Below, one piece after another: positions 1 through 12,159 of a stretch of 12,159 nt of DNA. The translations under genes were made by a program, and so were the position numbers. The notes below the pieces were generated by a model. That model saw only the letters and a list, made by a program, of their open reading frames with translations, was not told where the DNA came from and did not search any database. The stretch is taken from positions 1 through 12,159 of the forward strand of contig CACYDQ010000336.1 of NCBI GenBank assembly GCA_902773215.1, in the 5' to 3' direction. Each line of letters starts with the position of its first letter. Position 1 is the first letter of the stretch. The stretch comes from an uncultured Spirochaetaceae bacterium. Its GTDB lineage: Bacteria > Spirochaetota > Spirochaetia > Treponematales > Treponemataceae.

Positions 1-1228
1 CGAGGTTCTTGAGCGTGAGCGAGCCGTCCTCGCCGACGAAGATGCCCCACTTGATGCCTTTCTTGTCGGTGACGGCGTACTGCTTGTTCATCTTGGCTGC
101 GTCGGGGAAGACTTCGACGGCGACACCCCGCTCGCGGAGGGCTGCGGCGGCCTTGACGTAGGTCACTGCAAGGTTCGCATTCTGGTTGAAAATCTCCGCG
201 TCAATGTAGCTGCCCCTTCCTTCGGCAAGTCCCAGCTGGGACAGCCCGGCAATCAGGCGGTCAAGCCCGATGCTTGCCCCGACCCCGGGTATCTTGTCCT
301 TCATGTAGAGACCCGCGAGGTTGTCGTAGCGTCCACCTGAGCAGACCGAGCCGATGGAAGGCAGTTCGTCCAGGAAAGTCTCGTAGACCACGCCCGTGTA
401 GTAGTCCAGTCCCCGCGTTATGGAGGGGTCAAGCACGTAGGATGCGGAGATGCCGGTCGCGTCCATCATCGCGCGGATTTCCTTCATCCGCCTGGAGTCC
501 TCGGCCTCGCCTCCCGCAAGCTCCTCCAGATGGGCGAGGGTGGCTTCCCAGCCGTCCTTGCCCTGTATGTAGTCCAGTATGAGGTCCGCTGACTGGCTGC
601 TCCCCGTTATCTCGGCGAGCTCTTTGGCGACCTCGTCCTTACCGACCTTGGCGAGCTTGTCCACCACGCGGAGGATGTCCTCGCTCTTGTCGGTGCAGCT
701 GATTTTGGCAAGGAAGCGGTTAAAGATGCCCCGGTGGTTCACGTGGATCGTCACCTTTTCCACGCCGATTTCGGCGAGGGCGGCTTTCATCAGCTCAAGG
801 ATCTCAAAGTCGGATGCGGCGGAATCGCTCCCCACGCAGTCAAAGTCGCACTGGACGAATTCCCGGTAGCGGCCTGCCTGGGGCTTCTCTCCCCGCCAGA
901 CCTTGGCGATGTGGTAACGCTTGAAGGGGAAATAGAGCTCCTCGCGGTGCTCCGCCGTGAAGCGGGCGAAGGGCACGGTGAGGTCGAAGCGCATGGCAAC
1001 GTCCCGCCCCCCCTTGTCTTCAAAGCGGAAGACCTGCTTTTCGGTCTCGCCGTTGCTCTTGCGGAGCAGGATTTCCGTGTATTCCAGCACGGGGGTGTCA
1101 ATTGGCACGAAGCCCCGCGACCTGTATATCTTGGTCAGTTTCTCAATCAGCGACGAGCGCAGAATCTCGTCCTTGGGCAGGGAGTCCCTGAAGCCCTTCA
1201 GGACCTTTGGCTGTATAATCGTTTCCAT
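1..1228 (-). CDS. hisS: Histidyl-tRNA synthetase, partial (3' end beyond window)
   Basis: Cytoplasmic class II aminoacyl-tRNA synthetase that charges tRNA-His with histidine using ATP. The window holds 409 codons from the ATG; the C-terminal end of the anticodon-binding domain runs off the left edge. Visible are a start typical of the family (METIIQPKVLKGFRDSLP), motif 2 with GRYREF at about residues 119-124, the histidine-specific motif LDYYTGVVYE (274-283), SGGRYD (297-302) and the motif 3 stretch GVGASIGLDRLI. The ATP/histidine-site segment reads MRFDLTVPFARF followed by FPFKRYHIAKVWRGEKP, as in eukaryotic and Bacteroidota-like enzymes, and not the RPEGT form of E. coli. The ATG at 1228 was chosen because the in-frame ATG at 1237 shares its first two bases with the -10 hexamer. 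No Shine-Dalgarno is seen. The function is very secure. Confidence 0.97.
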   Translation of the reverse strand, partial: METIIQPKVLKGFRDSLPKDEILRSSLIEKLTKIYRSRGFVPIDTPVLEYTEILLRKSNGETEKQVFRFEDKGGRDVAMRFDLTVPFARFTAEHREELYFPFKRYHIAKVWRGEKPQAGRYREFVQCDFDCVGSDSAASDFEILELMKAALAEIGVEKVTIHVNHRGIFNRFLAKISCTDKSEDILRVVDKLAKVGKDEVAKELAEITGSSQSADLILDYIQGKDGWEATLAHLEELAGGEAEDSRRMKEIRAMMDATGISASYVLDPSITRGLDYYTGVVYETFLDELPSIGSVCSGGRYDNLAGLYMKDKIPGVGASIGLDRLIAGLSQLGLAEGRGSYIDAEIFNQNANLAVTYVKAAAALRERGVAVEVFPDAAKMNKQYAVTDKKGIKWGIFVGEDGSLTLKNL

Positions 1229-1235
1229 GCCCTGC

Positions 1236-1264
1236 ATTTTAGCAGAGATGGAGCGAAAATACAA
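1236..1264 (-). promoter_or_regulatory. Predicted promoter of hisS, leaderless arrangement
   Basis: Read on the minus strand, TTGTAT (1264-1259), a 17-base spacer and TAAAAT (1241-1236) form a sigma-70-like promoter with an extended TGC just before the -10. Only seven bases (GCAGGGC) separate the -10 from the ATG at 1228, so transcription should start at or within about one base of the start codon. It lies in the 51-bp gap after the chemoreceptor stop, so hisS is probably transcribed independently. No terminator hairpin is seen in this gap. Confidence 0.72.
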
Positions 1265-1279
1265 TAAGCATACTCGGGC

Positions 1280-3343
1280 CTATTCGGTCTTGAACCTCTT
1301 GATGTCTGCGCCGAATCGGGTTATCGTGCTGTCCATCTCCTCCACGCTGGAATCCAGCTGGCCGCCGCTCTTGACGACGCTCTGTGCGCTGTCGGACATA
1401 GCGGCCATGCTGTCGCGGACTGCCTCCACGGAGTCGCGCAGGCGGTTCATCTCGTCCAGAACCTGGCTGCTGCCCTCGGCCATGCGGGCGGATGCGCCGC
1501 GCACGTCAGCGGTGTTCTTGTCCATGCTGGAAAGCGAGCCGATGATGCTGCGGGACCCTGTGTTCTGTTCTTCCAGGGATTCCCTGATGGAACGGACCAG
1601 GCCGTCCGTCTCGTGGATGCGGACTGACACGCCGGAGAACGCCGCGCTGGACTCCTGGGAGGCCGACACAATCTCTCCGATGCTGTCCTGTATGTTCTTG
1701 AGCTGGTCGCCGATTGTCTTGGACTGGCCGGATGAGGTTTCCGAGAGCTTACGGATTTCGTCGGCAACGACCGCGAATCCCTTTCCGGCTTCGCCCGCAT
1801 GGGCGGCTTCGATGGCGGCGTTCATCGCGAGCAGGTTTGTCTGCTCGGCGATGGATGCTATGGCGGTGTTAGCTTCCTGAAGCATCTGGGACTGCTGCTC
1901 AATCTGGGAAATCCGTTCGTTGACCCGCTCTTGCTTGGCCATGCCGCTCTGGGCCTCCTTGTCCAGGAGGGCGAAGGATGTGGCCATTGTCTCCATGGAA
2001 AGGCTTATCTGCTCGATTCCTTTGACCAGCTGGCTTATGGCGGCGGACGAGTCGTGGATGCTCCTGCTCTGGGAGTCTATCATGTCATTGACCGTGGATA
2101 TGCTGGAGACGACCTCCTTGACGACGGAGGCGGTCTCCTCGAAGCCCGCGGCCTGGCTCTCTATCTGCTGCTGGACACTGCCGATGCTCGTGCGGATGCT
2201 CGTCATGGAATCCGACACGGAGGAGACGCTGGACTTCATTGTCTCGGAAACCGTGTCCAGCTGGATGCCGGTCGCCTTGAGCCCCCGCATCATTCCTTGC
2301 ATCTTCTCCATGAAGGCGTTGAATCCGTCTATGATGGCGTGGATGGACTGGAAGGGGGTGCGGATGTCCGTGTCCAGGCGGCGGGTCAGGTCCGCGTCGC
2401 CCGAGGCGATGTTCCTGACCGTGTTCTGCACCTCCCCGAGCGGCCGGAAAAGGCTGGTCATCGAGTAGGCGATGAGGATGACGACCGCCAGAATCAGGAC
2501 GATGGCGAAGGGGATGACGGCATTCCTCAGCAGCTCGGCCATGGTGAACGGCTTGTAGAGGACCATCGTCCAGGCGACTGAGGGAATCTCCTTGAGGAGG
2601 TACTCCCCTGTCAGGGTGTTGAAGCGTATCTCGTCTTTGGGGAAGAGCTCCTTGCCTTCAAGTTCGGGCAGCTGGCTGGTTATGGTGACGTGCTTTTCCA
2701 GAAGGGAGGTGTCCTTTGCGCCGCTTATTTCTTTGTCGGCGTTGAAGAAGAACAGCTCTTCCCCGTTGCTTTTCTCCCGGTACATCTGGTCAACGAAGTC
2801 AGACAGCTCTATGCCGGTTCCGATGAGGCCTATGCCCTTGCCAGAGCTGTTCCGCACGATTGCGTCCACCCAGAGCATGGTCTTCTTGAGGGCTATGTCG
2901 TAGCTGACCATGAAGGTGTAGGGGATGTCCAGCGCGAGACAGGCGGGGAACCAGGAGTTGGCGGGGTCGGACTTGTCCAGCGTGTACAGGACCTTGCCGT
3001 TGGAATAGTAGAGCAGGTCATTGTCCGAGATGGAGAATGTGTTCTTGCCCTTGAAGTTCTGCCGGAATGCCTCAATTTCCGCCTGTGCCCGGCTCGCAAG
3101 CCCGGGATCGGAGGGGGTTTCCATATATTTGATGATTGTCGGCGAGAGCGCCATCTGCTGTGCCAGCTTCAGCTCCGAGTTCAGGTTCGCGTCGAAGCCG
3201 AGGCTGCGGATTTTTGCGAGCTGCGTAAGCTCCTTTTCGGTCTCCATGTGGAACATTGCCCTGGATCCACATACGACCGCGGCCAGTCCGAGCAGGACTG
3301 CCGCCATGGTGACTGCCACTGAAAGGCTTTTGTTATTTTTCAT
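1280..3343 (-). CDS. Methyl-accepting chemotaxis protein with periplasmic CACHE-type sensor domain
   Basis: Transmembrane chemoreceptor of 687 residues that should signal to CheA/CheW and so control motility. In order: an N-terminal membrane segment (about 8-28); a periplasmic domain of roughly 240 residues whose [18 protein letters not shown] and [10 protein letters not shown] stretches fit a double-CACHE fold; a second membrane segment (about 275-297); HAMP (about 298-350); and a long coiled-coil signalling domain. The hairpin tip [21 protein letters not shown] (start about residue 500) and the following [14 protein letters not shown] are the strongly conserved MCP signature. The protein ends KRFKTE, so it lacks a C-terminal CheR/CheB-tethering pentapeptide. 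The ligand cannot be told from sequence. The ATG at 3343 begins a basic MKNNK leading straight into the first membrane segment, and is preceded by a promoter but no Shine-Dalgarno. The gene is divergent from feoA across 112 bp. Confidence 0.95.
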
Positions 3344-3351
3344 AACACTCT

Positions 3352-3379
3352 ATTATAGCAGTATCTGCACGTAAATCAA
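3352..3379 (-). promoter_or_regulatory. Predicted promoter of the chemoreceptor gene, near-leaderless
   Basis: On the minus strand TTGATT (3379-3374), a 16-base spacer ending in TGC and a perfect TATAAT (3357-3352) form an extended -10 promoter. Eight bases (AGAGTGTT) separate the -10 from the ATG at 3343, so the expected 5' leader is about one or two bases and cannot hold a ribosome-binding site. It is back to back with the feoA promoter; the two -35 elements are 24 bp apart. Confidence 0.75.
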
Positions 3380-3403
3380 GAGGTAATTTCTTTTGTGAGT
3401 TAC

Positions 3404-3432
3404 TTGACATTTTTGTTAGCAAGGTCTATCGT
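3404..3432 (+). promoter_or_regulatory. Predicted promoter of the feoA transcript
   Basis: A consensus TTGACA (3404-3409), a 17-base spacer and TATCGT (3427-3432) precede feoA. The expected start near 3439 gives a leader of about 17 bases containing the GGAGG ribosome-binding site at 3443-3447. I could not recognise a Fur or DtxR-type palindrome overlapping it. Confidence 0.6.
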
Positions 3433-3455
3433 AAGGTGTATTGGAGGAATAACAA

Positions 3456-3665
3456 ATGCCGCTGACTATGGCAAATCCGGAGGAGCAGTTCCTTATAAAG
3501 AAAATCAACGGAAACGAGGAGGTTCGCCGTTTCCTGGAGAATCTGGGCTTCGTTGCCGGGGCCTCCGTGACAGTCGTCTCCAAGATAGGGGAAAACCTCA
3601 TCGTCCGGATTATGGACAGCCGCATAGCGGTGAGCCGGGAGATGGCGCAGAAAATCATCGTCTGA
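3456..3665 (+). CDS. feoA: FeoA-family ferrous iron transport accessory protein
   Basis: Small SH3-like cytoplasmic protein of 69 residues, the usual length of FeoA, which supports ferrous iron uptake through the membrane GTPase FeoB. The sequence shows the family pattern: VRRFLENLGFVAGASVTVVSK in the first half, then GENLIVRIMDSRIAVSREMA leading to the C-terminal KIIV, with the short strands and conserved glycines of the fold. The ATG at 3456 has GGAGG at 3443-3447 with an 8-base spacer; the next in-frame ATG (3468) is too far from it. The next gene starts 17 bp downstream. Oddly, feoB is absent at this locus. The protein could act on a FeoB encoded elsewhere or be a stand-alone FeoA-like regulator; the family call is firm, the role less so. 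Confidence 0.9.
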   Translation: MPLTMANPEEQFLIKKINGNEEVRRFLENLGFVAGASVTVVSKIGENLIVRIMDSRIAVSREMAQKIIV

Positions 3666-3669
3666 CGGG

Positions 3670-3674
3670 GGAGG
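3670..3674 (+). promoter_or_regulatory. Ribosome-binding site that sets the start of the cysteine-rich peptide
   Basis: GGAGG lies 8 bases before the ATG at 3683, inside a G-rich run between the feoA stop and the next gene. A second GGAGG (3675-3679) is only 3 bases from the ATG and is less likely to be used. The site argues for a 52-residue product and against longer upstream in-frame reading. Confidence 0.65.
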
Positions 3675-3682
3675 GGAGGATA

Positions 3683-3841
3683 ATGCTTGGCACTGTACTT
3701 GTGAGTCTTGTCCTGCTGGCGCTTGTCGCCGCCATCATTTTTTCTCTGGTCAGGGGACGGAAGAAGGGCTCTCCCTGTGCCTCATGTGGCTGTGGCTGCG
3801 CCTCATGCGGGAAATCTTGCGGCCAGAGAGGCGGGAACTGA
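3683..3841 (+). CDS. FeoB-associated-type cysteine-rich membrane peptide
   Basis: Predicted 52-residue single-span membrane protein. A hydrophobic segment (residues about 2-22, VLVSLVLLALVAAIIFSLV) is followed by a basic stop-transfer patch RGRKKG and a cysteine-rich tail, CASCGCGCASCGKSCGQ, with seven cysteines. This architecture and length match the small FeoB-associated Cys-rich membrane proteins usually found just after feoB. They are thought to help iron transport, though the mechanism is not established. The cysteines could bind iron or a cluster (inference). It follows feoA by 17 bp and is surely cotranscribed with it. It is unusual that feoB does not stand between them. No terminator hairpin is visible before the next promoter, about 20 bp downstream. 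Confidence 0.82.
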   Translation: MLGTVLVSLVLLALVAAIIFSLVRGRKKGSPCASCGCGCASCGKSCGQRGGN

Positions 3842-3861
3842 CGGGATTTCTGATTTATTTC

Positions 3862-3890
3862 TTGAAAAAATAAGGATTGCCCCTTATAAT
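3862..3890 (+). promoter_or_regulatory. Predicted promoter of the hybrid kinase gene, leaderless arrangement
   Basis: TTGAAA (3862-3867), a 17-base spacer and a perfect TATAAT (3885-3890) make one of the strongest promoters in the window. Seven bases (AAAAGAG) separate the -10 from the ATG at 3898, so the transcript should begin at or one base before the start codon. The site also shows that the upstream in-frame TTG at 3877 is not a start, since it lies between the -35 and -10. Confidence 0.8.
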
Positions 3891-3897
3891 AAAAGAG

Positions 3898-6678
3898 ATG
3901 AAGCGGCTCTGTTTGTCACTGGCTTTCCTTTCCCTTGTGATTTTTTCTCTTTCGGCCCAGAAGAGGCAGGTAAGGGTTGCGTATTATCCGGTGAAGGGCT
4001 TTCAGGATTATGATAGGGATTCCGGCCTGTACTCGGGGTATTGCTATGAATACCTGCTTGCGATACGGCAGTATGCAGGATGGGACTATGCTTTTCTCAG
4101 GGTTGACAGCATGGGAGAGGCCCTCAGTCTCGTGGAAGAAGGGAATGCCGACCTGATAGCGGGTGTGCCGAGAGTATTTCAGTCTGATGACAGGCTTTGT
4201 TTTTCCGTGCGCGGCATCATAAATTCTTCCACGCGTCTGGTTGCAAACCCCGACAAGAGCCGCTTTGCCTACGGGGATTATAAAGGCTTCTACGGGATGC
4301 GGATCGGGATTCCTGCCGACGGGGATAACTTCACGTCGATTGTGCGTAATCTTCGCAATTTTGCCTCTGATCACAGCTTTTTCCCCGAGATTGTTTCTTT
4401 CGCGTCCGAGGAGGCGTGCGAGGCCGCGCTGTATTCCGGGGACATAGATGCCATGCTCAAGAACAGCATAGAGAAGACCAATTTCTATGCCGTCGCTGAT
4501 TACCAGTTCGAGGACTTGTTCTTTGCGGTCAACAGGGAGAAGACCGAGATACTGGAAGAACTGAACAACGCCCTCATTGAGATAGACAGGGTTATCCCGA
4601 CATACCGCTCTGACTTGGAGAGACGTTACTATACGGTGGAGCGGCGGGCCTCGTTCAACCCGAGCTTTTATGAGTCGGTTTTCCTGTCCAAGAGGAACGT
4701 CGTCAACGTCGGCTGTACGAGGACGTGGTTTCCTCTGGGCTACTTCGAGGGCGATCGTTTCTGTGGCCCCCTTGCGGACATATATTACCTGATAAGCCAG
4801 GAGACCGGTCTGAGGTTCAAGTATATCCCCTATGACACCTATGTCGATATGCTTGCGGCTTTCTCCCGGGGAGAAGTGGACGTACTGTGCGAGATGCCGT
4901 TTGATTTCCGTTATGCGGAACGTTACAATGCGAGCTTGTCGCGGGAGATGACGTCCATGAGCGTCATAGAGGTGCGCCGCTTGCCCGGGCAGGAGACGGA
5001 GCTTGAGGTAAAGGACGATAAGAAGCGCCTGGTCTGTGCGGAGCTTCCTGGTACCTATACGGGAGAGCTTGCCCGCATGTCGCTGGGGGACAGCTACGAC
5101 TACAAGACCTGCAAGACCGTCAAGGAATGCATCGATTCGGTTGTGTCCGGCGAGGTCGACATGACCTTCCTGTCAAGCTATCAGGTCGCGGCCTATCAGG
5201 CTAATCCCAAGTATAATACCCTCTCTTATACGGTCATGCCGGAGCTGCAATATTCGATATGCATTGGTGTCAGGAATGCCTGCGATCCCCGGCTCCTTTC
5301 GATTATTTCCAAGGGCCTTGCCATCATCGGGCAGGACAGGGCGAACGACCTCTTCCGCTCCTCCGTGCAGGAGGCGTACGGGGTGAGCCTCCTGACCTAT
5401 ATTTACCGGTCGCCCTTCCTTTTTGCCGGGATAATCATATTCATTGCGATTCTTCTTGTCATTATCCCCATGTCGATTATCTATTTTAAGTCCTTGAACC
5501 GCAAGAACAGGGATTTACGCAGGGCGAACAACGCCAAGACCGAGTTCGTCAGCAAGATGAGCCACGACATACGCACACCGCTCAACGGCATCCTCGGCAT
5601 GACCTATCTGGCAAAGGCCGAGACAAATCCGCCTAAGACAGGCGAATACCTGGACAAAATAGACCTGAGCGGGCATTTCCTCCTGAGCCTGGTCAATGAC
5701 ATACTGGACATGAACAAAATCGTGGGGAAGAACTTTGACCTGCACCCCGAGCCGTATCCTTTCGAGGAGTTCAAGTCCTACATCGTGGCAATCATAGCCC
5801 CGCTCTGCCTGAAGAAGGGGATTGCGTGCATCATCGACAATCTGGAGCTTGACGGGGCTCTGCTCGTGGACAGGCTCCGCTTCAACCAGGTCTTTGTCAA
5901 CCTTCTGTCGAATTCCGTCAAGTACACCAAACCCGGAGGCCATGTTCATCTCTGCTACGCCAACGTGTCATCGGACGACAAGACCTTCATCGGCGAGATT
6001 ATCGTCGAGGACAACGGCATTGGAATGAGCGAGGAATTCCAGAAGAGGATGTTCGAGCCGTTTACCCAGGAGAAAGACACGATGGCCAACATGGGAAGCG
6101 GCCTGGGGCTTTTCATTGTCAAGCAGCTGGTGGAGTCGATGGGCGGCTCCATCCGTGTGGAAAGCAAGCCGGGGCGGGGGACTCGTTTTATCGTCAGCCT
6201 GTCGCTTGAGCTGGTACCCATTACGAAGGAAGCCCCGCTTGTCCAGGAGGACATGGACCTCTTGGACGGTCTCCGTGTCCTTCTGTGCGAGGATAACGAA
6301 ATAAATGCAGAGATAGCCTCGCAGATGCTTGAACGGCGCGGCGTGACCGCAGATGTCGCCGAGAACGGGAGAGTCGGTCTGGAGAAGTTTGAGTCGAGCG
6401 AGGTCGGGTACTATGACCTCATACTGATGGACATACGGATGCCCGTGATGGATGGCTTCGAGGCCGCGAAAAAAATACAGCAGCTGGACAGGAGCGATGC
6501 AAAGGAAATTCCGATTATCGCCTTGACCGCAGACGCATACCTGCAGGACGAGGAGAAATCCACGAGCTGCGGCATGGTCGCGCACATAGCAAAGCCTGTC
6601 AATGCGGACAATCTCTATGAGACAATCGAACGCTGTATCAAGGCCCGCAACAGGGTCAGATCCTATGCATCGCGCTGA
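3898..6678 (+). CDS. Hybrid sensor histidine kinase with two periplasmic binding-protein domains
   Basis: Membrane sensor kinase of 926 residues with a BvgS-like layout. In order: a signal peptide (MKRLCLSLAF... cleaved near SLSA-QK, about residue 20); two tandem SBP_bac_3-type 'Venus flytrap' domains (about 24-245 and 262-495) that would bind a small solute in the periplasm; one membrane segment (about 507-530); HisKA with SHDIRTPLNG, phospho-acceptor His556; HATPase with N-box asparagines 668 and 672, DNGIG (705-709) and GSGLGL (733-738); and a receiver with acidic ED at 798-799, phospho-acceptor Asp845 in LMDIRMPVMDG, Thr877 and Lys899. All catalytic positions are present. Unlike BvgS there is no PAS domain before HisKA and no C-terminal HPt domain, so a separate HPt protein or direct REC output is needed. 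No response regulator lies beside it. The ATG at 3898 is chosen because it opens the signal peptide and sits 7 bases after a consensus -10. The 3' end overlaps the ACT gene by 23 bp. The ligand is unknown. Confidence 0.95.
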   Translation: MKRLCLSLAFLSLVIFSLSAQKRQVRVAYYPVKGFQDYDRDSGLYSGYCYEYLLAIRQYAGWDYAFLRVDSMGEALSLVEEGNADLIAGVPRVFQSDDRLCFSVRGIINSSTRLVANPDKSRFAYGDYKGFYGMRIGIPADGDNFTSIVRNLRNFASDHSFFPEIVSFASEEACEAALYSGDIDAMLKNSIEKTNFYAVADYQFEDLFFAVNREKTEILEELNNALIEIDRVIPTYRSDLERRYYTVERRASFNPSFYESVFLSKRNVVNVGCTRTWFPLGYFEGDRFCGPLADIYYLISQETGLRFKYIPYDTYVDMLAAFSRGEVDVLCEMPFDFRYAERYNASLSREMTSMSVIEVRRLPGQETELEVKDDKKRLVCAELPGTYTGELARMSLGDSYDYKTCKTVKECIDSVVSGEVDMTFLSSYQVAAYQANPKYNTLSYTVMPELQYSICIGVRNACDPRLLSIISKGLAIIGQDRANDLFRSSVQEAYGVSLLTYIYRSPFLFAGIIIFIAILLVIIPMSIIYFKSLNRKNRDLRRANNAKTEFVSKMSHDIRTPLNGILGMTYLAKAETNPPKTGEYLDKIDLSGHFLLSLVNDILDMNKIVGKNFDLHPEPYPFEEFKSYIVAIIAPLCLKKGIACIIDNLELDGALLVDRLRFNQVFVNLLSNSVKYTKPGGHVHLCYANVSSDDKTFIGEIIVEDNGIGMSEEFQKRMFEPFTQEKDTMANMGSGLGLFIVKQLVESMGGSIRVESKPGRGTRFIVSLSLELVPITKEAPLVQEDMDLLDGLRVLLCEDNEINAEIASQMLERRGVTADVAENGRVGLEKFESSEVGYYDLILMDIRMPVMDGFEAAKKIQQLDRSDAKEIPIIALTADAYLQDEEKSTSCGMVAHIAKPVNADNLYETIERCIKARNRVRSYASR

Positions 6679-6925
6679 ACACGCGCTCGTTCATGACGTT
6701 ACATTCCACGCCGAGTTCGGCGCAGCGTGCCGTCAGGTCTTTCCGCGCGCTGTCTATGTCGGTATCCGCGTTCTCGAAGTCAACCATCATCATCATGACG
6801 AAATTCCCGCTGAGGATGGTCTGGGTGATGTCCACGATGTTTATTGAATGTCCTGCGAGGTAGGCGGAGACCTTGGCGATGATTCCCACCTTGTCTCCGC
6901 CGACGACTGTGATTATTGCTTTCAT
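6656..6925 (-). CDS. ACT-domain protein, UPF0237 family
   Basis: Cytoplasmic protein of 89 residues, the normal length of this single-ACT-domain family. It opens MKAIITVVGGDKVGIIAKVS, the ACT ligand-loop pattern, followed by the helix AYLAGHSINIVDITQTIL and the strand GNFVMMMMVDF. The C-terminal half (about residues 55-89) supplies a second helix and strand. ACT domains usually sense amino acids or mediate dimerisation; the precise role of UPF0237 proteins is not established, and some relatives regulate amino-acid metabolism. The gene has its own promoter in a 41-bp gap after the cyclase and no Shine-Dalgarno. It converges on the kinase gene: its last seven codons and stop lie antisense to the kinase 3' end, overlapping by 23 bp, so no terminator can sit between them. 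Confidence 0.88.
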   Translation of the reverse strand: MKAIITVVGGDKVGIIAKVSAYLAGHSINIVDITQTILSGNFVMMMMVDFENADTDIDSARKDLTARCAELGVECNVMNERVFSAMHRI

Positions 6926-6934
6926 ATACGGCGT

Positions 6935-6963
6935 ATTTTAGCAGAAAGCGGGGGGCATTTCAA
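6935..6963 (-). promoter_or_regulatory. Predicted promoter of the ACT-domain gene, near-leaderless
   Basis: On the minus strand TTGAAA (6963-6958), a 17-base spacer ending in TGC and TAAAAT (6940-6935) form an extended -10 promoter. Nine bases (ACGCCGTAT) separate it from the ATG at 6925, leaving at most two or three untranslated bases. The -35 begins only 3 bases beyond the stop codon of the cyclase. Confidence 0.75.
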
Positions 6964-6966
6964 TAT

Positions 6967-9003
6967 CTACTTTGATGTGGCCTTCCACACTCCCTGCCAG
7001 TCTGAGGGCGGATCCGCCATGAGCTCCTCGCATTTTGCCGAATAGAAAGAGGCTGGCGGATCCTGCTCCTTTGTGGAGTCGAACACGGCCTTTGCCCCGG
7101 CGAAGTCACCAGCATAGAACAGATCGCGCCCTTTGTCAAAGGAGCCGATGAGCTCTTTTTTGGCGGCGAAGACTTCTTCTGTCATGGGCTCATAGACCGT
7201 GACGGCCTCCTTCTTGCCCACAACGGCAACACGGGCCAGCTCCCTGAAGCGCAGGGTACATCCATGCGCCAGCGCGCTTTCCATCGTGGCCTTGGAACAC
7301 ATCGTATAGGTGCCGAACTGCTTGTTCAGCCCCTCCAGGCGGGAGGCAAGGTTGACGCTGTCGCCAAGCATCGTGTAGTCAAAGCGGTTGGACGAGCCCA
7401 TATTGCCTACGACGGCATGGCCGGTGTTCATCCCTATCCGCTGGTAGAATTTCTTGCCCGTCATCTTGTGCAGGTCCGTGCGGAGCTCGTCAAGCCTCTT
7501 CTGGCATTCCATCGCCGCGCTAAGAATCCGCGCGGCATGGTCTTCCTGGTTGGCAGGGGCATTCCAGAAGGCGATAATGGCATCTCCCTCATATTTGTCG
7601 ATTGTTCCTCCCGACTCCAGTATGATGGAGCTCATCTCGGAAAGGTAGAGGTTCAGCACCTCCGTCAGCTTGGTCGGGTTCTTGGAAAGGCTCTCCGAGA
7701 TGCTTGTGAAGCCCTGTACGTCGGAGAAGAAGATGCTGATCTCCCGCTCCTCACCGCCGAGCCTGAGGCTGTCAGGGTTGCTTATCAGCTGGTCTATGAC
7801 TGCCGGGCTCAGGTACTGGGAGAAAGCTGCCTTGATGAAGCGTTTCTGCCTTCCTTCGAGCATGTAGGTCAGCGCGAGCTGGAGCAGGAAGGAGAACGCG
7901 AAGCTTGCGAGCGGGGCGACGAGCAGGATATACCAGCCCATGACGAAAAGTGCGAAGGAGCCGCCCGTTATGAGGAACAGCCCCAATATGACCGTACCTA
8001 TGGCGGACAGGACGTTGCCCAGGCTGCTCTTCCGTGCCTCCGTAAAGCTTATTGCGAGGATGCCGAGGATGCTTGCCAGCACTATCCATGCAACGGAGCC
8101 GGGGATGGGAACTGTCCGCATGAAGTCGCCGGACAAGTAATTGTCCAGCTCCGTGATGTGTACCCCGCAGCCCGGGTAGACCTGCGAAATCGGCGAAGAG
8201 CAGATATCGAAGAGTCCGGGCGCGTAGTAGGCGTAGTAGACATAGGCTCCCTCAAAGCTTTCCGGGGGAATCAGAGGCTCATTGCCGGCCTTGTAGTCGT
8301 AGTAACTCTGGAGCACGTCGGAGGCACGGTAGGGATTGTAGACGTCGAGGCCTGACCGGTAGCGGAGGAGCAGGGTCTCCCCCTTCTCGACGGGGGAGGA
8401 GGCCTTTATTTCGTCTATCGACATCCCCGATATGAGGAGGGGGGCGATTCCGAGCGAGGGGTATTCGCCGTCATCGCTGACGAATGAAATCCTTCCCCGC
8501 CGCATCACGTCGTCGCTGTCCTTCGCGCTGACCGTGGTGCCGATGACCCCCGCGCTCTCGCGGATTGAATCGACCGGGAAGATGAGATCGTCCGGGGAGC
8601 TTGAGGCATCGTCCGCGTACATCGCATGGACGACCTTTCCGTATTCGGCGCAGGCATCCGCGAAGGCATTGTCGTCCGCGTCCCCGTAGACCGAGGGCTC
8701 GGTAAAGAGGACATCAAATGCGATTGCCTCGGCATTGCCGATGTTCATGTACTTCACGATGTCGCCGAGGGCAGCGCGGGGCCAGGGCCAGCCCCAGCCC
8801 ATTTCCCGCCGGGCCCAGTTTATGCTCTCCTGATCTACCGTGATGAAGCAGATATCCTGTGACGGATAGCTGTACGGCGCGGCGAACTTGGTCCGGCTGT
8901 CAAAGGTCTTGTTCTCCAGGAAGGAGAAGAGCCCGGAGAAATGCAGGATGGTGATGGCGAGCGACACGCCGATGATTATGAGGACCGAACGGAAGTATTT
9001 CAT
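6967..9003 (-). CDS. CHASE2-domain adenylate cyclase (class III)
   Basis: Membrane-bound cyclase of 678 residues that should make cAMP from ATP in response to a periplasmic signal. An N-terminal membrane segment (about 5-26) is followed by an extracytoplasmic CHASE2 domain (about 30-300, with the typical WGWPWPRAAL and AIAFDVLF stretches), three membrane segments (about 303-320, 331-352, 355-378) and the catalytic domain (about 415-590). Catalytic residues are complete: metal ligands Asp428 (FSDVQGFT) and Asp474 (KYEGDAII), adenine-selecting Lys470 and Thr544 (DYTMLGD), and transition-state Asn551 and Arg555 (NLASRLEG). The Lys/Thr pair favours ATP over GTP. A tail of about 80 residues resembles a short TPR-like helical module ending in DPPSDWQGVW. 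It starts 2 bases after the M48 stop (TAA-AT-ATG) with only a weak distant ribosome site, so translation is probably coupled. It is the last gene of the SH3-M48-cyclase operon. Confidence 0.95.
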   Translation of the reverse strand: MKYFRSVLIIIGVSLAITILHFSGLFSFLENKTFDSRTKFAAPYSYPSQDICFITVDQESINWARREMGWGWPWPRAALGDIVKYMNIGNAEAIAFDVLFTEPSVYGDADDNAFADACAEYGKVVHAMYADDASSSPDDLIFPVDSIRESAGVIGTTVSAKDSDDVMRRGRISFVSDDGEYPSLGIAPLLISGMSIDEIKASSPVEKGETLLLRYRSGLDVYNPYRASDVLQSYYDYKAGNEPLIPPESFEGAYVYYAYYAPGLFDICSSPISQVYPGCGVHITELDNYLSGDFMRTVPIPGSVAWIVLASILGILAISFTEARKSSLGNVLSAIGTVILGLFLITGGSFALFVMGWYILLVAPLASFAFSFLLQLALTYMLEGRQKRFIKAAFSQYLSPAVIDQLISNPDSLRLGGEEREISIFFSDVQGFTSISESLSKNPTKLTEVLNLYLSEMSSIILESGGTIDKYEGDAIIAFWNAPANQEDHAARILSAAMECQKRLDELRTDLHKMTGKKFYQRIGMNTGHAVVGNMGSSNRFDYTMLGDSVNLASRLEGLNKQFGTYTMCSKATMESALAHGCTLRFRELARVAVVGKKEAVTVYEPMTEEVFAAKKELIGSFDKGRDLFYAGDFAGAKAVFDSTKEQDPPASFYSAKCEELMADPPSDWQGVWKATSK

Positions 9004-9005
9004 AT

Positions 9006-9896
9006 TTACCGTATTCCCTGTGTTTTTTCGAATCGGGCCGTACGGACTTTCCTGTTGTACTCCTTCTTGTATTTCTTCAGGTCGCCCTTTATGTTCTTGA
9101 TTCTGGATGCGGCGTCCGGATGGTTCTTGCAGAAGCCGGTCGTCTGTCCCTCTTCCTTGAGTTTGAGCAGGTTCAGCATGTCCTGCATCGCTTGCGGGTC
9201 ATATCCTGCATCGCTCATCAGGGACAGGGCCTTCTTGTCTGCCTGGAACTCCTGCGTCTTGGAGTAGCCGGAAGTCGCCAGCTCTTCTACCATGACATCG
9301 ACGTTCACGCCCAGATCGGCGAGAATCCGCGCGTTTCCGCTGTGAGGAAGCTCATCCCCGACGGCTTTGATCAGCTCGTTCGTCGCCCTGTTGGACTTTA
9401 TTGCCTTGACGCTGTGTCCCAGCTGGATGTGGGCTATCTCGTGCGCGATGACCGCCGCGAGGGCATCCTCATCCCCGGCGCACTCCATGAGTCCCCTCGT
9501 GATGAGGATGTGGCCGCCCGGGGAGGAGATGGCATTCACCTCGTCCGTGTCCAGGATACCGACATAGTAGCCCTTGTAGAGCAGGGGCATGTCGGATGCC
9601 TGGGTTATTGCGGCACAGATTTTGTTGGCGTATGCCGTCGCCGCCTTGTTATCGTAGAGCTTGTAGTTCTTCAGGACTGTCCCGGCGACCGCGCGCCCGA
9701 TGTAGTACTGCTGCTCGGGAGTTATTTCCTCGGTCACTGCCGCGATGGAGGAGGATGCCTTGGAGACCTCGTTCCCCGCGTTCTGGACTGACCCCGCAAT
9801 CTTCCTGAAGCCGTCGAGTCCGTCTGCGGGAACCGTGCCCTGGACGAAAGCCGCGAGGATGGCGCTGCTGATAAGTGCCTGCGTTCTCGCCCTCAT
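9006..9896 (-). CDS. Exported M48-family zinc metallopeptidase
   Basis: Predicted extracytoplasmic zinc protease of 296 residues related to the YcaL/LoiP/BepA group, which are envelope quality-control proteases in other bacteria. The N-terminus (MRARTQALISSAILAAFVQG) looks like a signal peptide without a lipobox cysteine. The zinc site is intact: HEIAH at 152-156 gives two histidine ligands and the catalytic glutamate, and Glu216 in EFQAD (216-220) is the expected third ligand. A conserved NAISSPGGHILITRGL strand precedes the active-site helix, and a Lys-rich C-terminus follows. No BepA-like TPR domain is present. AAGGAGG (9910-9904) lies 7 bases before the ATG, and the ATG shares its A with the TAA stop of the SH3 gene (TAATG), so the two are translationally coupled. 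Substrate unknown; the context suggests cell-envelope maintenance or processing of a sensor. Confidence 0.93.
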   Translation of the reverse strand: MRARTQALISSAILAAFVQGTVPADGLDGFRKIAGSVQNAGNEVSKASSSIAAVTEEITPEQQYYIGRAVAGTVLKNYKLYDNKAATAYANKICAAITQASDMPLLYKGYYVGILDTDEVNAISSPGGHILITRGLMECAGDEDALAAVIAHEIAHIQLGHSVKAIKSNRATNELIKAVGDELPHSGNARILADLGVNVDVMVEELATSGYSKTQEFQADKKALSLMSDAGYDPQAMQDMLNLLKLKEEGQTTGFCKNHPDAASRIKNIKGDLKKYKKEYNRKVRTARFEKTQGIR

Positions 9897-10357
9897 TACT
9901 CTGCCTCCTTGAGCTTGCCTTCCTTTATGAACGCCTGCCGCTCGGCATCGGAGACAGTGTTGCCCTCGATGATATCGACCGCAGCGTTGTCGGTATCCCA
10001 GGACGAGGCATCCCGGTTCTCGAAGCCTTCGGCGAATCCCTTTCCTGCCAGGGAAATCTCGTTCGCATCGGTCTTGACGGACTTGCCCGCGACAATCTTG
10101 CGTTTAGACAGGGCTGAGCTGCTGACCCAGCCCTTGACGGACGGGGAAGCCTTGGGAGAGACCTGTGTCCATTTGCCGGATTCCTTTATGAGCGTCAGCT
10201 CGTCGCCGTAGCTGACCGTCGCGATTGTCTTGGACGTGTTCGATGATTTCTCTTTGATGGCGAGCGACTGGACAGAGACATAGCGGGAGGCCCCGGCGGC
10301 GAACGCCGAGACAGCGATGCTTGCAGCAAGAACTGCTATGAACAATCTTTTAGACAT
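9896..10357 (-). CDS. Exported SH3-domain (SH3b-type) protein
   Basis: Predicted periplasmic or surface protein of 153 residues. A clear signal peptide (MSKRLFIAVLAASIAVSAFA, cleaved near AFA-AG) is followed by a bacterial SH3 domain at about residues 25-85: RYVSVQSLAIKEKSSNTS, then TVSYGDELTLIKESGKWTQV and GWVSSSAL. Such domains often bind peptidoglycan or proteins. The remaining 65 residues are polar, with no recognisable domain. The start at 10357 is chosen because GGAGG lies 7 bases upstream and the signal peptide begins there; the upstream in-frame ATG at 10387 directly abuts the -10 hexamer and cannot be in the transcript. It is the first gene of the operon with the M48 peptidase and CHASE2 cyclase. 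A function such as delivering the peptidase to the cell wall or sensing wall state is inference. Confidence 0.88.
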   Translation of the reverse strand: MSKRLFIAVLAASIAVSAFAAGASRYVSVQSLAIKEKSSNTSKTIATVSYGDELTLIKESGKWTQVSPKASPSVKGWVSSSALSKRKIVAGKSVKTDANEISLAGKGFAEGFENRDASSWDTDNAAVDIIEGNTVSDAERQAFIKEGKLKEAE

Positions 10358-10364
10358 ATAAAAG

Positions 10365-10369
10365 CCTCC
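10365..10369 (-). promoter_or_regulatory. Ribosome-binding site of the SH3-domain gene
   Basis: GGAGG on the minus strand, 7 bases before the ATG at 10357. It fixes this ATG as the start and removes ten residues from the longest open frame. Confidence 0.8.
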
Positions 10370-10387
10370 ATATATTAGATAAGGCAT

Positions 10388-10416
10388 ATTATATGCGCGT
10401 TTAGCCTTGTGTGCAA
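10388..10416 (-). promoter_or_regulatory. Predicted promoter of the SH3-M48-cyclase operon
   Basis: On the minus strand TTGCAC (10416-10411), a 17-base spacer and a perfect TATAAT (10393-10388). The expected start near 10381 gives a leader of about 24 bases that contains the GGAGG site, unlike the leaderless promoters elsewhere in the window. Its -35 lies inside a perfect inverted repeat. Confidence 0.75.
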
Positions 10417-10444: not shown

Positions 10445-11227
10445 TTATTTTTGGCGGAACTCTGCCTTGAGTTTCTCCGGGCAGACTTCCCTGACGAGCG
10501 CCTGGGCGAGGATTTTCGCCGGGTCAATCTTCGTTATGGGCATGCGGAGGCGGCCCATCGCGAGCGGTATCTCCGTGCAGCCCATGATGAAGGTGTCGTA
10601 GCCCTGGGCGACCATCTTCTCCGTGACGATGCGGAAGTTCTCCACCGCCTGGTCGGTTATCGGGTTGGAGCAGGCCTTTATGCCGTAGTCCCGGTTGTAT
10701 ATCGCCTCCCAGATGAGCTTCCTGTCCTCCTCATCGGGCTCTACTATCTGCTTCTCACCGTCAGGGTCAAAGAACGTGTGGTAGACACCGGAGTAGTAGC
10801 TTCCGGCCGTCGCATAGAGGACAACTTTTTTGCTCTTGACGTTCTCCCGCACCCACTTATAGGTCTCCTCGACGATATTCATCAGCGTCACGTCGAAGCC
10901 GTTCATTTCGATGAACCTCCGCACCTGGTTCATGATGATAGGGGAGTGGGCGGTGTTGCAGGGAATCGCTATGTGGGTTGCTCCCGCCTCCGCGAGCTTC
11001 TGTATAACGTACTCGATGCCCGTGCAGGGGTTCTCCGACTCCGGGTGCAGGATGTAATAGGTCCTGTCCGGAATCAGGCGGGAGGCCGAAATCATGATGA
11101 CATCGGGGTAGTCCTGGTCGCTTTTCGCGTCAACGCAGTCAAAGACTTTCCGCTCCAGATCCATCCCGGCATAGGGGCCCATGCCGCCCACTATGCCTAT
11201 CGCTTTCCTATTTCTTGTCAAATGCAT
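10445..11227 (-). CDS. Aspartate/glutamate racemase family protein
   Basis: Cytoplasmic PLP-independent amino-acid racemase, 260 residues, which would interconvert L- and D-aspartate (or a related amino acid) with two catalytic cysteines. The N-terminus carries GIVGGMGPYAG. The first catalytic cysteine is Cys90 in IPCNTAH and the second Cys217 in MGCTEIPLA, the spacing expected for this family. The GMGP motif points to the aspartate racemase group more than to MurI, but substrate cannot be settled. The 5' end overlaps the upstream cyclase by 20 bp, so they form one operon. The start is uncertain: GGAG (11234-11231) is only 3 bases from the ATG at 11227 but 9 bases from an in-frame TTG at 11221, which would give 258 residues. 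D-amino acids made here could serve peptidoglycan or signalling (inference). Confidence 0.9.
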   Translation of the reverse strand: MHLTRNRKAIGIVGGMGPYAGMDLERKVFDCVDAKSDQDYPDVIMISASRLIPDRTYYILHPESENPCTGIEYVIQKLAEAGATHIAIPCNTAHSPIIMNQVRRFIEMNGFDVTLMNIVEETYKWVRENVKSKKVVLYATAGSYYSGVYHTFFDPDGEKQIVEPDEEDRKLIWEAIYNRDYGIKACSNPITDQAVENFRIVTEKMVAQGYDTFIMGCTEIPLAMGRLRMPITKIDPAKILAQALVREVCPEKLKAEFRQK

Positions 11228-12159
11228 ACACTCCGTTCCACTTTTCGGGCGGGTTCAGCTTGAAGGCTTCCGCCCGTTCCTTGATGACTTCCGCAGCCTT
11301 GTCGTTCAGCCGGCGGATGACCGCAGACATATACTTGATGCAGTTGTCCCAGTCTCCTTCAAAGTAGTACTTGAGTCCCTTCTCGTAGCCCCGGTAGACC
11401 TTGAGGATATTCATATCCAGCTTGTTCTTCTCAGCCAGAAGCTCGTAGATATAGAGAGGCTTGGTTTTGCCCTTCACCGTAATCTTGTCGAGCATGCGGA
11501 ACTCGAAGTCGTCCTTGACCAGGTCGTGGGTGACCGAGCTGATGATGATTTCCGTCCCGTAGTACTTGTTGATTCCCTCCAAACGGCTCGCGAGGTTCAC
11601 GTTGTCGCCGAGAACCGTGTAGTTGATTCTCTCGTCCGATCCCATGTTGCCGACGACAACCTCGCCCGTGTGGATGCCGAAGCGGGTGCGGAACTTGGGC
11701 TTGCCCTCGCGTATCCATGCGTTGGACAGGTTAAAGCCCTGCATCTGGCAGGTGAGGGCTGAGCGGCAGGCAAGCTCCGCGTGCTGCTTGATGTCCATCT
11801 CGATCGGTGCGCCCCAGAAAGCCATGATGGAGTCGCCGATGTACTTGTCTATCGTGCCCCGGTTGCCCGAGATCGTGTGGGCGAAGAGGGAGAAGTAGTC
11901 GTAGAGGCGGTTCACGAGGTCTTCCGGCTTGGTTTTCTCGGATATGCCCGTGAAGTTCTCTATATCGGAGAACATCAGGGTCAGGGTCTGCTTCTTGCCC
12001 CCGATCTCCGCCTTCTGGCTGTTCCGTATGAGCTGGGTCACGAGGTCGGAGGGAACGTACTTCTTGAAGTTGACGAGGCCCTGTTTCATTCCCTCGAAGG
12101 ATTCGACCATGTTGTCTATCTCTTTTATGCCGGAGTCGTGCATGACCACGCCGTCATCA
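11208..12159 (-). CDS. Adenylate cyclase (class III), partial, probably HAMP-linked
   Basis: C-terminal part (about 316 residues) of a cyclase whose 5' end lies beyond the right edge; the frame stays open to the edge, so the GTG at 12149 need not be a real start. The first visible residues (SGIKEIDNMVESFEGM) look like the last helix of a HAMP domain, followed by the linker FKKYVPSDLVTQLI and the catalytic domain. Metal ligands are Asp in FSDIENFT (codon 11966-11964) and Asp in KYIGDSIM (11834-11832); the ATP-selecting Lys (11846-11844) and Thr of NYTVLGD (11618-11616) and the NLASRLEG Asn/Arg pair are all present, so cAMP synthesis is expected. A TPR-like tail ends NPPEKWNGVYAFDKK, resembling the tail of the CHASE2 cyclase. 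The full protein probably has an N-terminal membrane sensor domain, as usual for this architecture. The gene ends inside the racemase gene. Confidence 0.93.
   Translation of the reverse strand, partial: DDGVVMHDSGIKEIDNMVESFEGMKQGLVNFKKYVPSDLVTQLIRNSQKAEIGGKKQTLTLMFSDIENFTGISEKTKPEDLVNRLYDYFSLFAHTISGNRGTIDKYIGDSIMAFWGAPIEMDIKQHAELACRSALTCQMQGFNLSNAWIREGKPKFRTRFGIHTGEVVVGNMGSDERINYTVLGDNVNLASRLEGINKYYGTEIIISSVTHDLVKDDFEFRMLDKITVKGKTKPLYIYELLAEKNKLDMNILKVYRGYEKGLKYYFEGDWDNCIKYMSAVIRRLNDKAAEVIKERAEAFKLNPPEKWNGVYAFDKK

Follow-up and report, generated by a model that had tools for sequence, protein, structure and literature searches.

Start-adjacent promoters suggest leaderless mRNAs in a Treponema lineage

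Introduction

Like the organism studied here, Leptospira is a spirochaete, and it is among the bacteria in which leaderless mRNAs have been described. In Leptospira interrogans, dRNA-seq placed the mapped start of 430-450 genes at most 10 nt from the start codon, beside leadered genes (PMC5243855). In a survey of gene starts by Zheng et al. (2011; PMC3160421), TA-led genes were found in 6 of 18 spirochaete genomes, where they made up 1.8-6.9% of genes with a mean of 3.9%; Treponema is not mentioned in the accessible main text of that survey. Outside the spirochaetes, many genes of Mycobacterium tuberculosis are leaderless and stand beside leadered genes (PMC3898074; a count of 505 is cited in PMC5243855). 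In Deinococcus-Thermus, a -10 element a few bp before the open reading frame drives leaderless mRNA, as tested with reporters, and about 30% of open reading frames are of this kind (PMC12340547). These statements follow the accessible parts of the four papers.

Among the matches listed in literature searches, whose scope lay mostly outside subscription journals, we found no report of leaderless mRNA in Treponema. For "leaderless mRNA" and Treponema together, the matches listed held only a toxin-antitoxin review, judged by its accessible text. The word "leaderless" also occurs eight times in a T. pallidum paper, which was set aside because its accessible text applies the word to antimicrobial peptides without leader peptides and not to mRNA.

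Results

Four genes in the window have a promoter next to the start codon

The window is the whole stretch of DNA that was analysed, 12,159 nucleotides long, and is contig 336 of a MAG of 2.69 Mb in 523 contigs that is 72% complete. Since hisS in the window is 91-95% identical to hisS of three Treponema MAGs (L021, which is from goat rumen, L022 and L045), we conclude that the source is a Treponema. Pfam matches named the genes for hisS, a chemoreceptor, feoA, a FeoB-associated Cys-rich protein, a hybrid kinase, an ACT protein, a CHASE2 cyclase, an M48 peptidase, an SH3 protein and a racemase.

An initial annotation of this DNA had described a -35/-10 pair directly before hisS, the chemoreceptor, the hybrid kinase and the ACT gene (Table 1), and had predicted leaderless mRNAs from this placement. 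Direct reading and a script found the spacers (17, 16, 17 and 17) and the distances from -10 to ATG (7, 8, 7 and 9) to be exact. The four genes were also said to have no Shine-Dalgarno (SD) site, and indeed GGAG, GAGG and AGGA were absent 3-12 nt before each of the four ATGs in a script check. With +1 placed seven bases past the -10, the predicted leaders would be 1, 2, 1 and 3 nt for hisS, the chemoreceptor, the kinase and the ACT gene, or 0 if the A of the ATG were used. A same-strand gene precedes hisS by 51 nt and the ACT gene by 41 nt, and the ACT promoter fits inside this 41-nt gap behind the cyclase gene. The -35 of hisS (TTGTAT) is weak, matching the consensus at only 3 of 6 positions, so that consensus scans list just three of the four genes and miss hisS. 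In such a scan, five ATGs in the window had a pair matching at 9 or more of 12 positions and ending 6-10 nt upstream; three are the named gene starts and two are intragenic. The same count in 40 dinucleotide shuffles of the window had a mean of 0.4 and a maximum of 3.

The promoter positions had also led the initial annotation to move two gene starts, and both changes are supported. For hisS, two observations favour the start at 1228: the mechanical TTG start at 1264 coincides with the -35, and in 65 of 80 relatives the matches start at residue 1. The kinase start at 3898 is backed by the position of the mechanical TTG at 3877, which falls in the promoter spacer, and by the relative L232, which keeps an ATG 7 nt past the same -10.

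The window also holds genes with strong SD sites. For feoA (3456), the Cys-rich gene (3683), the SH3 gene (start 10357) and the M48 gene (9896), the SD sites claimed earlier are present: their GAGG ends 7 or 8 nt upstream of the ATG. The promoters of feoA and the SH3 gene, which are of the same type as those of the four genes, lie 23 and 30 nt before the ATG, and thus leaderless-type and leadered layouts coexist in the window as proposed. No SD tetramer precedes the cyclase gene at 9003, and its start was not among the window ATGs with a close promoter pair. The longest open reading frame of the SH3 gene begins at 10387, directly behind the -10 TATAAT. We prefer the SD-preceded ATG at 10357 as the likely start, since transcription would start only after the beginning of the longer frame.

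Several neighbouring features were observed along the way. The 112-bp divergent region at 3344-3455 carries back-to-back promoters for the chemoreceptor (leaderless type) and feoA (leadered), and so offers a compact natural comparison. Between 3456 and 3841, the Cys-rich gene follows feoA directly with no feoB between them, and the hybrid kinase comes next. Nucleotide cyclase genes lie near each other at 6967-9003 (CHASE2 by Pfam) and 11208-12149 (judged from the translation only).

Table 1. Genes, predicted start-adjacent promoters and SD-led contrast genes in the window
Feature	Coordinates	Strand	Basis
hisS, histidyl-tRNA synthetase, cut by window edge	2..1228	-	Pfam PF13393, E 1.5e-50
hisS predicted leaderless promoter and start: TTGTAT-17-TAAAAT, 7 nt, ATG at 1228	1226..1264	-	direct reading and script check
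Methyl-accepting chemotaxis protein (chemoreceptor)	1280..3343	-	PF00015, E 1.7e-28
Chemoreceptor predicted leaderless promoter and start: TTGATT-16-TATAAT, 8 nt, ATG at 3343	3341..3379	-	direct reading and script check
feoA, leadered contrast: TTGACA-17-TATCGT, -10 ends 23 nt before ATG at 3456, GGAGG	3404..3665	+	sequence scan
FeoB-associated Cys-rich protein, SD contrast	3683..3841	+	PF12669, E 4.1e-11
Kinase predicted leaderless promoter and start: TTGAAA-17-TATAAT, 7 nt, ATG at 3898	3862..3900	+	direct reading and script check
Hybrid sensor kinase (solute-binding match, HisKA, HATPase_c, receiver)	3898..6678	+	Pfam
ACT-domain protein, 89 aa	6656..6925	-	PF13740, E 3.9e-14
ACT predicted leaderless promoter and start: TTGAAA-17-TAAAAT, 9 nt, ATG at 6925	6923..6963	-	direct reading and script check
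M48 peptidase gene, contrast: GGAGG 7 nt before ATG	9006..9896	-	PF01435
SH3 gene, leadered contrast: TGCACA-16-TATAAT ends 30 nt before ATG at 10357, GGAGG 7 nt before ATG	9896..10415	-	sequence scan

The layout is in excess across the genome

A genome-wide count of close -10 boxes had been proposed as a check on the leaderless prediction. In the whole genome, TATAAT stood 6-8 nt before an ATG 112 times and 14-16 nt before an ATG 25 times (p = 1.2e-14), and the prediction withstood this test against chance. For a closer view we sampled 100 contigs with numbers from 3 to 434 of 523, the last 89 lying outside the sample; 73 were readable (485,691 bases) and 27 masked. Left out of the statistics were 19 contigs (20 stretches) that had been picked by promoter pattern or that held the window. 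A simple home-made codon-usage gene caller gave 349 usable gene starts. With a box defined as TANNNT with at most one mismatch to TATAAT, boxes ending 6, 7, 8 and 9 nt upstream of the start were present in 16, 7, 7 and 5 genes (35/349), compared with about 2 at each other position. No such excess appeared at 2747 internal in-frame Met codons of the sample, which had 10 boxes at 6-9 nt against 8 per four positions elsewhere.

We then fitted a mixture model with three classes (SD, -10 and none) and a prior for the -10 distance that was flat over 0-30. The model returned AGGAGG for the SD class and, for the -10 class, the motif TAtAaT peaking 6 nt before the start, so that +1 would fall on the A of the ATG. 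When the free model was refitted on shuffled upstream regions it made 51-105 calls, compared with 66 in the real sequence; because free motifs overfit in this way, the free model alone proves nothing, and fixed parameters were used instead. With fixed parameters (distance 5-11, P over 0.5), the -10 class held 59 of the 349 genes and 28-48 in ten dinucleotide shuffles, whereas at P over 0.9 there were 42 real calls and 5-13 in the ten shuffles. SD calls numbered 253 in the real sequence and 175-203 in shuffled sequence. Among the 59 genes of the -10 class, distance 6 was the commonest (25/59).

The -35 element, unused by the model, provided independent evidence. TTGACA with at most two mismatches occurred at a spacer of 17 in 30 of the 59 genes and of 18 in 11, with other spacers found 0-5 times, and 44 of the 59 had a -35 at 16-18 bp. 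Requiring P of at least 0.9 together with a -35 at 16-18 bp left a strict set of 34 genes. The share of sampled genes with the leaderless layout thus runs from 34 (strict) to 59 (loose) of 349, or 10-17%, where 17% is an upper estimate because the shuffles also give 28-48 loose calls, and the strict figure is inflated much less.

Genes with the leaderless layout counted as first in their unit (divergent neighbour, or a gap of at least 40 nt) in 55 of 56 cases with a known upstream neighbour, compared with 133 of 228 SD-led genes, although the rule contains some circularity, since a promoter itself takes up about that much room. A Pfam scan of 30 of the 34 strict genes matched 27 at 1e-8 and left three without a match. 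In 11 of the 27 the domain begins 2-12 residues past the predicted start (for example at residue 6 in phosphofructokinase, 8 in GatB and 10 in chorismate synthase), and so at least those starts are right. No functional theme was seen among the Pfam-matched strict genes, which mix metabolism, translation, signalling and restriction. At L174:787-2388, L143:1643-3220 and L185:1254-4643 the strict set contains two AAA-ATPase/PD-(D/E)XK proteins from a single family as well as a type I restriction R subunit, so the layout occurs in genes of these kinds too.

In the sample, leaderless and SD genes did not differ significantly in start-region folding energy (p = 0.13), and early-codon composition and the +4 base gave no clear difference. 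Start codons were not distinctive either, with ATG, GTG and TTG used 56, 3 and 0 times in leaderless genes and 223, 21 and 2 times in SD genes.

Relatives keep the layout to different degrees

We examined 78 hisS loci, leaving out L099 and L100, and found an ATG at the aligned start in 64 and none in 14. A box lay 6-9 nt upstream in 42 of the 64, in 28 of them at exactly 6, and an SD was present in only 3 of the 64. A -35 at 16-18 accompanied the box in 31 of the 42. The box-bearing loci come from Treponema, Treponemataceae, Spirochaetaceae, Spirochaetales or Spirochaetes and have a GC of 30-63% (fetched loci); as mutual relatives they are not independent cases. In the close relatives L021, L022 and L045 the -10 lies at 7-9 nt. 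Four loci without an aligned ATG (L034, L037, L038 and L040) have, by eye, an ATG two codons upstream with a box 7 or 9 nt before it.

For the ACT gene, the kinase, feoA and the chemoreceptor we considered the best 20-30 places per search, the window's own included. Among the best 30 ACT loci, 11 had a box at 6-9, and at one of these an SD tetramer also stood at 3 nt. A further 12 had an SD tetramer 3-12 nt upstream, and seven had neither. These counts suggest that ACT orthologues mostly use either the leaderless layout or an SD. In two genomes, L214 and L217, the sequence just upstream of the ACT gene is nearly identical and ends in a strong SD, where other relatives have the leaderless promoter. 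Possibly a repeated sequence has displaced the ACT promoter there.

An ATG lay near the aligned start in 18 of the best 20 chemoreceptor loci and was missing in two. Of these 18, three had a box and no SD (the window's own included), 11 had an SD and no box, and four had neither. In L293, the nearest relative, whose N-terminal part is 91% identical, the -35, the -10 and the 8-nt distance are kept while the spacer sequence has diverged. Among the matches listed for the kinase, the only close orthologue was in L232, which keeps the layout; a distant one in L233 has its box at 11 nt. As a control we used feoA, for which one of the best 30 loci lacked an ATG near the aligned start; the remaining 29 had a box at 6-9 in no case and an SD in 21.

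The excess extends across the class

Comparing 149 genomes of the phylum, we found more TATAAT-ATG pairs at 6-8 than at 14-16 in all 26 genomes of the class, our own included, although only nine of the 26 pass the Bonferroni cut-off and some excesses are tiny (G141: 104 vs 103). The fold ratio of the two counts was 4.48 in our genome, 1.51 in the genus, 1.40 in the rest of the family, 1.75 in the rest of the order and 1.18 in the rest of the class. Since fold ratios also depend on GC, we note as well that the excess counts of the eight other genomes of the genus run from 9 to 93 and bracket our own 87. Summed over the other 123 genomes of the phylum, the counts were level (40,728 at 6-8 vs 40,702 at 14-16), which does not prove absence, as a TATAAT count misses lineages with another -10 sequence. 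Of these 123, 62 had an excess; only G011 passes the Bonferroni cut-off, and p is below 0.01 in three more.

Discussion

From sequence we obtained promoter geometry, a genome-wide excess, an independent -35, conservation, and rarity of SD sites in the same genes. Together these support the leaderless interpretation of the initial annotation, and leaderless mRNA from start-adjacent sigma-70-type promoters is very probably the best explanation of the four genes and of the genome-wide layout. The layout is real, and it is a kind of gene start that is already known. We propose that a sigma-70-type promoter is placed so that RNA polymerase would start at the A of the start codon, or 1-3 bases before it. 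The resulting mRNA would lack both a 5' leader and an SD site, and initiation would take place at the 5'-terminal AUG itself, by ribosomes that, as judged from other bacteria, would probably be assembled 70S. The leaderless mode would serve about 10-17% of genes in this Treponema lineage, nearly all of which have room for a promoter of their own, and SD sites would serve most other genes beside it.

Other readings of the same data fare less well. The most serious, which we consider unlikely, is that the promoters are real but minor, with transcription of the genes coming mainly from further upstream, either from another promoter or by read-through of the preceding gene, so that most of their mRNA is leadered. 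The short gaps to same-strand genes before hisS and ACT would allow this, as would the weak -35 of hisS; however, the longer transcript would carry no SD before the ATG, and the hisS layout is kept in 42 of 64 loci. A still less probable reading takes the hexamer to be an A/T-rich unstructured stretch that aids 30S loading on mRNA from an upstream promoter. Start regions rich in A/T and low in structure are common in bacteria, and the four genes do lack an SD. Yet the motif is specifically TAtAaT and not any A/T, and we rejected an A/T-rich start region without a promoter because the -35 sits at a fixed 17-18 bp spacer in 41 of 59 genes, with each other spacer found at most five times.

We give almost no credence to a chance placement of promoter-like sequences in this one window. 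It could draw on the consensus scan at 9 of 12, which only three of the four genes pass, but the window shuffles fall well below the observed count on average (maximum 3), conservation speaks against it, and the genome-wide counts rule it out. Wrongly called gene starts were rejected on the residue-1 matches of hisS, the kinase ATG in L232 and the Pfam domain starts. Leaderless initiation from start-adjacent promoters, the reading we favour, has its own contrary evidence: the layout is present in only 11 of the best 30 ACT loci, an SD takes its place in 11 of 18 chemoreceptor loci, the -35 of hisS in the window is weak, and start-region folding does not differ significantly between leaderless and SD genes.

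Gene-start prediction often relies on SD-based models; about one in ten genes here needs a promoter-based one. With its leaderless layout kept across many relatives, hisS lends itself to a clean test of why a gene remains leaderless, and the ACT gene, leaderless or SD-led depending on the member of the genus, is a natural experiment on the switch between modes. More speculatively, and with rather more doubt than confidence, treponemes and their class relatives could be a further leaderless stronghold besides actinobacteria and Deinococcus-Thermus. Genes such as hisS would then have been kept leaderless over long divergence (30-63% GC), implying selection for leaderless translation itself, for example to make histidyl-tRNA synthetase when normal initiation is limited.

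The described systems, as given in the accessible parts of the papers, resemble this one in different respects. As in M. tuberculosis, leaderless and leadered genes appear to stand side by side here, although that organism belongs to another phylum (PMC3898074). L. interrogans shows the same coexistence, proven there by RNA and in another lineage; no shared motif other than sigma-54 elements is described in the accessible text, whereas we find a clear sigma-70 pair (PMC5243855). Deinococcus-Thermus shares the -10 next to the open reading frame (PMC12340547), and here 44 of 59 such genes also have a -35 at 16-18 bp. The TA-led genes of Zheng et al. have a TANNNT box whose first T lies about 12 bp ahead of the start and were likewise read as leaderless (PMC3160421). 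Their spirochaete mean of 3.9% compares with 10-17% of sampled genes here, by different methods, and by our estimate the predicted leaderless share in this Treponema exceeds the published spirochaete range.
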